From Bacteroidales bacterium (GTDB lineage Bacteria; Bacteroidota; Bacteroidia; Bacteroidales; PXBB01): a DNA stretch of 64,000 bases. Positions within the stretch are counted from its first letter, which is position 1; each line of letters starts with the position of its first letter. The notes under the pieces were generated by a model. The model was not told where the DNA came from and did not search any database. It worked only from the letters and a program-made list of their open reading frames with translations. The position numbers and the translations under genes were made by a program. The stretch is taken from the NCBI GenBank assembly GCA_028698995.1, contig JAQVVM010000023.1:1-64000 (forward strand), written 5' to 3'. This document shows positions 29,761 through 30,433 of this stretch, one piece after another.

Positions 29761-29863
29761 AAATGTTCTCTCTTTAAATAATATAGTTTAATTAATAAAT
29801 CTTTGTCATATAAAGACTGAAATATTTGTAAGTATTTGCCTGACATGACTTTAAAAACTTTTT

Positions 29864-30021
29864 CAGGGCTCAGAGGTGTTTGTTGTGAGATGTAGTGGAT
29901 TACCTTCGGTGATCCAGAGGGGTGGGGCTAAACAAATACCTCTTTTAAAACCCTTTTTTATTTCAGTTTAGCCTTCCAAAAGCAAGCTATGGAGGCTTCC
30001 CTGAAATAAAAAAAGCCCTTT
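29864..30021 (-). repeat. tRNA-Val-derived tandem repeat, unit 3 (distal)
   Basis: A 158-bp unit, the most distal from tRNA-Val. It carries at 29886-29901 a copy of the last 16 nt of the tRNA gene plus the following 9 bases. It is the most diverged copy: the outer stem has AACAAATACCTC instead of AACAAACACCTC, and its terminator hairpin has lost one arm (AAACTTTTTCAGGGCT). It can still form most of the 73-nt hairpin seen in the other copies. Confidence 0.9.
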
Positions 30022-30179
30022 CAGGGCTCAGAGGTGTTTGTTGTGAGATGTAGTGGATTACCTTCGGTGATCCAGAGAGGGGGGCTAAACAAACACCTCT
30101 GTTAAAACCCTTTTTTATTTCAGTTTAGCCTTCCAAAAGCAAGCTATGGAGGCTTCCCTGAAATAAAAAAAAGCCCTTT
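30022..30179 (-). repeat. tRNA-Val-derived tandem repeat, unit 2 (middle)
   Basis: A 158-bp unit. The tRNA-tail copy is at 30044-30059. A 14-bp perfect inverted repeat CAGAGGTGTTTGTT (30029-30042) pairs with AACAAACACCTCTG (30088-30101). It encloses a small GGAT-ACC/GGT-ATCC hairpin. Each unit also contains a second inverted repeat (ATTTCAG...CTGAAAT enclosing AGCCTCC/GGAAGGCT) and ends in a terminator-like AGCCCT-GAA-AGGGCT-T7 on the minus strand. Confidence 0.92.
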
Positions 30180-30336
30180 CAGGGCTCATAGGTGTTTGTT
30201 GTGAGATGTAGTGGATTACCTTCGGTGATCCAGAGAGGGGGGCTAAACAAACACCTCTGTTGAAACCCTTTTTTATTTCAGTTTAGCCTTCCAAAAGCAA
30301 GCTATGGAGGCTTCCCTGAAATAAAAAAAGCCCTTT
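30180..30336 (-). repeat. tRNA-Val-derived tandem repeat, unit 1 (proximal)
   Basis: A 157-bp unit directly downstream of tRNA-Val. The tRNA-tail copy is at 30202-30217. It is nearly identical to the middle unit, with differences such as CATAGGTG for CAGAGGTG, which introduces one mismatch in the long stem. It carries no open reading frame of note on either strand. Confidence 0.92.
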
Positions 30337-30343
30337 CAGGGCT
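30322..30343 (-). terminator. Intrinsic terminator of tRNA-Val
   Basis: On the minus strand AGCCCT-GAA-AGGGCT is followed by T7, 16 bases after the tRNA 3' end. The same hairpin recurs at the unit 1/unit 2 and unit 2/unit 3 junctions. Confidence 0.85.
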
Positions 30344-30358
30344 CAGAGTTGTTTGTTG

Positions 30359-30433
30359 TGAGATGTAGTGGATTCGAACCACTGACCCCCGCCCTGTCAA
30401 GGCGATGCTCTAAACCAACTGAGCTAACATCCC
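30359..30433 (-). tRNA. tRNA-Val (anticodon GAC)
   Basis: A 75-nt cloverleaf on the minus strand. The acceptor stem is GGGATGT/ACATCTC with discriminator A, the D-arm GCTC...GAGC, the anticodon stem TCGCC/GGCGG with loop TTGACAG (anticodon GAC, valine), the variable loop GGGTC, and the T-arm AGTGG-TTCGAAT-CCACT. The CCA end is not encoded. A TATTTTTG box lies 13 bases upstream and a terminator follows. The last 16 bases are repeated three times downstream. Confidence 0.95.

Follow-up and report, generated by a model that had tools for sequence, protein, structure and literature searches.

Tandem array at tRNA-Val(GAC)

The window, meaning the whole 64,000-nucleotide stretch of Bacteroidales DNA analysed here (contig JAQVVM010000023.1), carries an intact tRNA-Val(GAC) gene followed, in the tRNA sense, by direct repeats with spacings of 158, 158 and 157 bp and an identity of 96–99% (Table 1). 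TRF scored the array at 968, with 3.3 copies of period 158. The final 16 nt of the tRNA gene (AATCCACTACATCTCA) together with the following 9 bases (CAACAAACA) showed three exact recurrences. An earlier reading of this locus (hereafter the sequence-only reading) had described three tandem units with the tRNA 3′ end beside this gene, including the exact 16 nt and 9 bases and a degenerate distal terminator, and our analysis bears out this description. Three of the terminator copies have a T-run; the fourth and most distal, at approximately 29854–29870, is degenerate.

Table 1. Features of the tRNA-Val(GAC) array (positions are those of the window)
Feature	Position	Strand	Basis
tRNA-Val(GAC), intact, T-loop GTTCGAATCC (presumed insertion target)	30358–30433	minus	ARAGORN + Rfam
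Unit 1, 158 bp	30217–30374	minus	Repeat analysis + predicted fold
Unit 2, 158 bp, layout as unit 1	30059–30216	minus	Repeat analysis
Unit 3, 158 bp, most divergent of the three	29901–30058	minus	Repeat analysis
Distal tail: final tRNA 3′ copy, trailer, degenerate terminator	29853–29900	minus	
Core hairpin GGATCACCGAAGGTAATCC, copy 1, in place of T-loop GTTCG ahead of tRNA 3′ copy	30213–30231	minus	
Core hairpin, copy 2	30055–30073	minus	
Core hairpin, copy 3	29897–29915	minus	
tRNA 3′-end copy 1, AATCCACTACATCTCA	30202–30217	minus	
tRNA 3′-end copy 2	30044–30059	minus	
tRNA 3′-end copy 3	29886–29901	minus	
Terminator-like hairpin, unit 1 (the tRNA terminator)	30328–30344	minus	
Terminator-like hairpin, unit 2	30171–30187	minus	
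Terminator-like hairpin, unit 3	30013–30029	minus	
Hairpin B, unit 1, 21-nt arms including T-run and A-run	30269–30328	minus	
Hairpin B, unit 2	30111–30170	minus	
Hairpin B, unit 3	29954–30013	minus	
A′ (inverted complement of tRNA trailer), unit 1, CAGAGGTGTTTGTT, closes fold	30246–30259	minus	
A′, unit 2	30088–30101	minus	
A′, unit 3, AGAGGTATTTGTT, one substitution	29930–29943	minus	

Each unit is arranged in the order of tRNA 3′ end from AATCC, trailer, terminator, hairpin B, trailer complement, C-rich tract and hairpin core. Within the unit, two features go beyond the sequence-only reading: a 19-nt hairpin takes the place of the T-loop in every tRNA copy, and each unit holds an inverted copy of the trailer (A′). 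The trailer and A′ enclose the terminator hairpin and the long hairpin B. The break point reads GGTTCG/AATCC in the tRNA and GAAGGT/AATCC in the copy, AATCC being the second half of the T-loop/T-stem. The core hairpin has the form GGATCACC-GAA-GGTAATCC, in which the run before AATCC pairs together with AATCC. Folded as single-stranded DNA, unit 2 gave a z-score of −6.0. The longest stop-to-stop frame within the array has approximately 55 codons and lacks a GIY-YIG motif, making this array a gene-less member of the family described below.

The unit was confined to the tRNA-Val(GAC) locus in its own genome, and its matches in phages and plasmids were tRNA genes only. Plain BLASTN with the unit gave no match among 59 relatives. 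At the array and at related loci, Rfam covariance models above the gathering score matched only tRNA and tmRNA. An assembly artefact is an unlikely source of the array, because the units differ in substitutions and because the family also forms arrays of 7 and 13 units in a genome of two contigs.

Core hairpin as a marker of related elements

At least 12 Bacteroidota genomes contain the hairpin GGATCACCGAAGGTAATCC, almost always 3′ of a tRNA (Ser, Pro, Arg, Val) or tmRNA gene, in arrays of up to 13 units. Sister genomes do hold related arrays, a point on which the sequence-only reading had made itself dependent, and in a genome of the same family one related element stands at tRNA-Val(GAC). 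A scan of the GTDB collection for the exact 21-nt core detected, outside the window genome, two MAGs only: one with a 104-bp tandem array at tRNA-Pro and another array at a contig end, and one in which the core adjoins tRNA-Arg. When up to three mismatches were allowed, 13 of 393 genomes of the order matched, against one for a reversed control pattern. Nine of the 13 matches were genuine by context, with the core 125–160 nt 3′ of a tRNA in constant orientation, either single or in 2–13 copies; at one of the nine (G200), the tRNA is a 3′ half at the end of an island. The other four (G012, G016, G094 and G392), which have no tRNA there, are probably chance matches. The host tRNAs in the order were chiefly tRNA-Ser, followed by Pro, Arg and Val. 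A phylum sample of 395 genomes added three genomes (G522, G574 and G625), with elements at tRNA-Arg in G522 and G574 and at tmRNA in G574 and G625.

The elements are 105–160 bp in length and contain no integrase. The stem of the core is almost invariant, and base 10 in its loop varies (A, C or G). At three single-copy loci (L044, L047 and L052) the core is perfect despite a decayed tRNA 3′ copy. In G574, a 195-aa collagen-like lipoprotein frame lies between the tmRNA and the core element (L067, contig C6, 7800–8740), and this segment is flanked by copies of the tmRNA 3′ end.

Several other identities of the core were considered. Homology to the 16S rRNA 3′ end (GGATCACC versus GGAACACC) was rejected, since G522 and G625 have GGAACACC in 16S rRNA but GGATCACC in the core. 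A Bacteroidota-type promoter was dropped on inspection, as the fit was poor and changed with the loop base, and an attC/integron-like site was ruled out, also by inspection, by the absence of the GTTRRRY core.

tRNA 3′ ends are classic attachment sites, and the sequence-only reading had offered an integration-site scar as its alternative. In this case, an island or phage with a tyrosine recombinase would have deposited a stack of attR sites at the tRNA 3′ end. Insertion at the tRNA 3′ end stood up in our analysis, and one distinct island does place an integrase next to a tRNA-Pro 3′ half (G200). The remainder of this explanation did not: the signature is unlike that of tyrosine-recombinase attachment sites, the array neighbourhoods share neither an integrase nor any other gene partner or gene family, the core is absent from IMG/VR viral sequences, phages and plasmids match the unit only at tRNA genes, and the Ser, Val, Arg, Pro and tmRNA targets all share a single core. 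We consider this the least probable of the origins discussed here. Adjacency of an integrase was rejected as a shared feature of the family, for it occurs in G200 only, as part of a separate island; there (L077, contig C10, ~8700), the island with its 445-aa tyrosine recombinase ends at a tRNA-Pro 3′ half that starts from the anticodon loop and abuts a core element.

A covarying fold between the tRNA and the core

We compared the predicted folds of 15 tRNA-linked elements, comprising 14 loci and the window. Similar folds lie between the tRNA and the core in all of them, in the order of a trailer/A′ stem at the tRNA 3′ end, the terminator hairpin, hairpin B, usually a hairpin C, a C-rich tract and the core. 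The arms of hairpin B hold a T-run and an A-run in the 15 elements, and the window is without a clear hairpin C. Compared with shuffled sequences, the fold energies gave z-scores of −3.2 to −16.8. Both trailer and A′ are fully diverged between loci, yet the best pairing was with the element's own partner in 14 of 17 elements, the three exceptions being near-copies within one genome. The mean pairing energy was −22.4 kcal/mol with the own partner and −11.5 kcal/mol with swapped partners, and none of 20,000 permutations was as good. In two genomes of one genus (G302 and G365), both tRNA-Ser(cga) and tRNA-Ser(tga) retain the element, with trailer and A′ altered yet matching. Together with the perfect core, the retention within a genus and the covariation at two tRNA-Ser genes suggest selection in place, which would resemble a functional RNA or DNA structure more than a decaying insertion.

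The host might retain such a structure as a non-coding RNA or tRNA-trailer element, transcribed either together with the tRNA or from the other strand. Its trailer-paired fold would then govern termination or the 3′ processing of the tRNA, or give rise to a small RNA of the kind proposed for E. coli rtT. The strong conservation and covariation of the fold agree with this possibility, as does the retention across a genus at two tRNA-Ser loci, and its strongest point is the near-invariant core, which is intact where the tRNA copy has decayed. On inspection, the core on the strand opposite the tRNA forms a G-U wobble at the position of an A·C mismatch in the tRNA strand, and hairpin C with the A-run resembles an opposite-strand terminator in many loci. 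However, no Rfam match was obtained, a strong terminator precedes most of the fold in each unit, and the distribution is patchy (approximately 2% of the sampled genomes in the order). Moreover, almost identical elements stand at three tRNA-Ser genes in G087, which looks like spread, and the same layout carries a nuclease gene elsewhere. On balance, we regard maintenance as a host RNA as unlikely. The convergent small-RNA family put forward by the sequence-only reading is likewise not favoured: the strongest link found is with a selfish nuclease element and not with a regulator.

T-loop boundary and probable insertion of the units

Exact tRNA 3′ copies start inside the T-loop (GTTCRANNC) at 18 of 26 loci, and at 11 of these, E. 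coli tyrT included, they start at the same base as in the window. The probability of this boundary by chance was approximately 1e-5, assuming a uniform start over 29 positions. At five of the 26 loci the copy starts further 5′, in the anticodon-stem/variable region, beside a hairpin.

A rival origin of such repeats would be passive tandem duplication of the tRNA 3′ end and terminator region, by slippage or unequal crossover and without further meaning. The 96–99% identity between the units of the window is what this process would leave, and distal units at other loci do appear co-amplified. It leaves unexplained, however, the T-loop boundary, the covarying trailer pairs, adjacent units with unlike trailers and the GIY-YIG genes, and it is largely refuted by the recurrence of one core at unrelated loci and tRNAs; as a full account of the array it is very improbable. 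At tRNA-Arg of G574, adjacent units have unlike trailers and an identical 17-nt tRNA 3′ copy. At the orthologous tRNA-Val(GAC) of a genome of the same family (G001), one related element is present (ACAACAAACG ... GTTTGTTGTTTGTATCCCCCC), from which the core has been lost, whereas this tRNA lacks the element in G002 and in a number of further genomes. The compared tRNA-Val(GAC) loci share no flanking genes, and an empty site between conserved flanks was not found among them. Judged from these sequence comparisons, the units are insertions and not duplications alone.

Linkage with GIY-YIG nuclease genes

To look for 3′-end copies, we surveyed 91 tRNA genes of the window genome (G000) and G302. 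The window genome has six further tRNA loci with related hairpin-tagged tRNA copies, and a GIY-YIG gene lies immediately upstream of its tRNA-Arg(cct). Units that enclose a small GIY-YIG gene stand at tRNA-Val(tac), tRNA-Phe and tRNA-Pro of the window genome and at tRNA-Val(tac) of G302; the gene at tRNA-Val(tac) of the window genome is a pseudogene. These units end in a tRNA copy broken by other hairpins, such as TTCCGATTGCTATCGGAA, CTCCGATAGCTATCGGAG and TCCCGGCTGACAGCCGGGA. Overall, GIY-YIG genes enclosed by hairpin-interrupted tRNA copies were observed at several tRNAs, among them tRNA-Val, Phe, Asn, Pro and Asp.

By our own count, searching nine genomes with PF01541 gave 30 small GIY-YIG loci, 18 of which lie at, and share the strand of, a tRNA or tmRNA gene. 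Given approximately 50 tRNA genes and a reach of 600 bp each way, 0.2 loci were expected (P ~4e-31, with the per-locus chance being our estimate). No tRNA was found at the other 12 loci, one of which was unchecked, and these count against the origin of the array proposed below. All seven GIY-YIG proteins tested scored above the Pfam cut-off.

The same core as in the window was found beside a nuclease gene in G625, where an 85-codon GIY-YIG frame 3′ of tmRNA stops 82 nt before GGATCACCGGAGGTAATCC, a core with the GGA loop seen in other arrays. When 149 genomes of its family were searched with the G625 protein, 12 carriers were detected, 10 of which have a tmRNA or tRNA just upstream. Variants of the core accompany the gene in two further genomes: in G855, AGATCACCGAAGGTAATCT lies 41 nt past the nuclease gene and both sides of its outer pair have changed, which is compensatory, and G884 has a long-loop variant, GATCACC-GAACGCAGTGA-GGTAATC. 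To judge from these three genomes, which belong to a family other than that of the window and have the gene at tmRNA in every case, the window-type core belongs to elements that carry a nuclease gene in some genomes. Several intact GIY-YIG genes lie at other tRNAs of the window genome, but their units have TCCCGA-type hairpins unlike the window core, and no nuclease gene with the exact window core was found in this genome. No viral carriers of the G625 nuclease were found. The solved structures nearest to this protein were PDB 1zg2 (E 1.6e-6) and 1ywl (E 2.7e-4), which are small GIY-YIG proteins of the UPF0213 type. To our knowledge, UPF0213-type proteins have no assigned function and no known tRNA-attached repeats.

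Some loci in this survey had arrangements of their own. At L164 and L181, GIY-YIG genes lie 5′ of tRNA-Pro and tRNA-Arg, after a partial tRNA 5′ half, and mirror the 3′ elements; on inspection, a hairpin seems to break this 5′ half within its D-loop. At L182 and L231, the GIY-YIG frame enters the tRNA fragment, so that T-arm sequence encodes the C-terminus (GGSLVRFQSE and AKLVRVPHLRD). Four other loci are in the window genome. At tRNA-Pro(ggg) (L183, contig C31), two GIY-YIG units occur with 59-bp mini-repeats that are scarcely more than a hairpin and a tRNA 3′ end, and on contig C30 (L228) two GIY-YIG genes of 139 aa stand in tandem ~700 bp from each other, where no neighbouring tRNA was found. 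Another gene-less array, at tRNA-Ser(tga) (L236, contig C42, ~455–1120), comprises five or more units with the architecture of the window and has five copies of the hairpin TCCCGACATTTAAGTCGGGA (TCCCGAC...GTCGGGA). Approximately three gene-less units of 98 bp stand at tRNA-His (L118, contig C22), with the hairpin TCCCGACCGAAGCGTCGGGA and an inverted copy of the tRNA 3′ end (GGAAGATGGGGC) in each unit.

Proposed origin of the array

We propose, with a probability of roughly 0.68, that the array consists of tandem non-autonomous, gene-less units of a Bacteroidota family of GIY-YIG elements residing in tRNA and tmRNA T-loops. This proposal draws on the anatomy of the array, the conservation of its core, the covarying fold, the location at tRNA and tmRNA genes, the linkage with GIY-YIG genes and the T-loop boundary. 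From these we infer cutting, mobility and mobilization in trans, as well as transcription of the units and effects on the tRNA beyond the supply of a terminator.

According to this model, a unit would be a contiguous insertion at the tRNA T-loop (GTTCG/AATCC). Its left end would supply the tRNA with a substitute 3′ end, followed by the trailer and terminator of the unit itself, leaving the tRNA whole, and its right end would be a partial T-arm in which the T-loop is replaced by the hairpin, with the displaced old 3′ end behind it. A GIY-YIG nuclease would cut the T-loop DNA of the tRNA gene, and recombinational repair from a unit-bearing copy would insert the unit. The hairpin would remove the cut motif, rendering the leftover copy both uncuttable and untranscribable as a tRNA. 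Recutting of the intact T-loop, in combination with recombination among units, would then build tandem arrays, and the gene-less units of the window would rely on a nuclease acting in trans. Several points count against this model: no nuclease gene with the window core was found in the window genome, the core is linked with the nuclease through three tmRNA loci of another family, the conserved core and fold suggest selection in place, some small GIY-YIG loci lie away from tRNA genes, and no empty site was found. In addition, the model does not account for the escape from cutting of the intact tRNA, which retains its T-loop. The suggestion of the sequence-only reading that the layout reflects a general way in which such arrays arise gains support in the form of T-loop insertion or break repair, with GIY-YIG genes present at many sister loci. 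The best-supported identity of the window array is a gene-less branch of the GIY-YIG-linked T-loop family, and not an established small-RNA locus. If this is correct, many small orphan GIY-YIG genes of Bacteroidota may have found a possible function.

Comparison with known systems

More broadly, and as a tentative proposal that we hold to be somewhat doubtful, these elements may represent an undescribed class of mobile elements in bacterial tRNA and tmRNA T-loops, with E. coli tyrT/rttR as a relic in another phylum and with gene-less units moved in trans in the manner of REPs or MITEs. No description of such elements was found in the literature searched; as this literature omits most subscription journals, the negative result is weak evidence of novelty.

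Integrative elements that target tRNA genes (tycheposons and NBU-type elements) resemble the window family in that their insertion at a tRNA 3′ end leaves the gene complete. They carry tyrosine recombinases and cargo, whereas the units of the window family are free of integrase and have the T-loop replaced by a hairpin. In the REP/BIME system, a few autonomous copies encode a protein (RAYT, TnpA-REP) that is presumed to mobilize the short hairpins in trans. REP/BIME sequences are dispersed and depend on an HUH protein, whereas the window family is found only at tRNA and tmRNA 3′ ends and its linked gene is GIY-YIG; no REP-like dispersed extragenic copies of the window unit were found in its own genome, where it has a single locus. 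If the gene-less units do move in trans, they would constitute a REP-like system with a different enzyme.

The likeness to E. coli tyrT that the sequence-only reading had pointed out proved to be deeper than claimed, because both copies begin at AATCC in the T-loop. In E. coli K-12 tyrT and tyrV, the copy starts at AATCCTTCCCCCACCACCA, after ...AAGGTTCGA and a structured insert. The tyrT/tyrV locus with rttR shares with the window the tandem units 3′ of the tRNA, the copy from AATCC and the partial T-arm with a structured T-loop insert. The E. coli unit differs in being of unrelated sequence, approximately 178 bp long, with a short annotated ORF (tpr) and an ncRNA (rttR), and the 3 kb examined at tyrT contained neither the GGATCACC core nor a GIY-YIG gene. 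On inspection, and with no Rfam match, the window unit had no homology to the E. coli unit or to rttR, the T-loop boundary alone being common to both. The origin of the E. coli tyrT repeats with tRNA 3′ copies has long been unexplained, and the boundary shared by dozens of loci, at many of which a GIY-YIG nuclease gene separates the tRNA from its scarred copy, makes this origin testable.

Finally, the T-even phages offer a precedent for the enzyme. SegB, a free-standing GIY-YIG homing nuclease, cleaves tRNA genes internally at several positions with the motif RAWTSGAAC, and drives tandem amplification of the tRNA region through recombination (PMC13096335). The complement of this motif, GTTCSAWTY, fits the T-loop GTTCGAATC, an identification that is ours and not that of the cited paper. 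SegB is phage-borne, longer and without a described hairpin-interrupted tRNA copy, whereas the window units are without a nuclease gene. Our findings suggest that universally conserved T-loop DNA is a general target of selfish nucleases in chromosomes, as it is for phage SegB.
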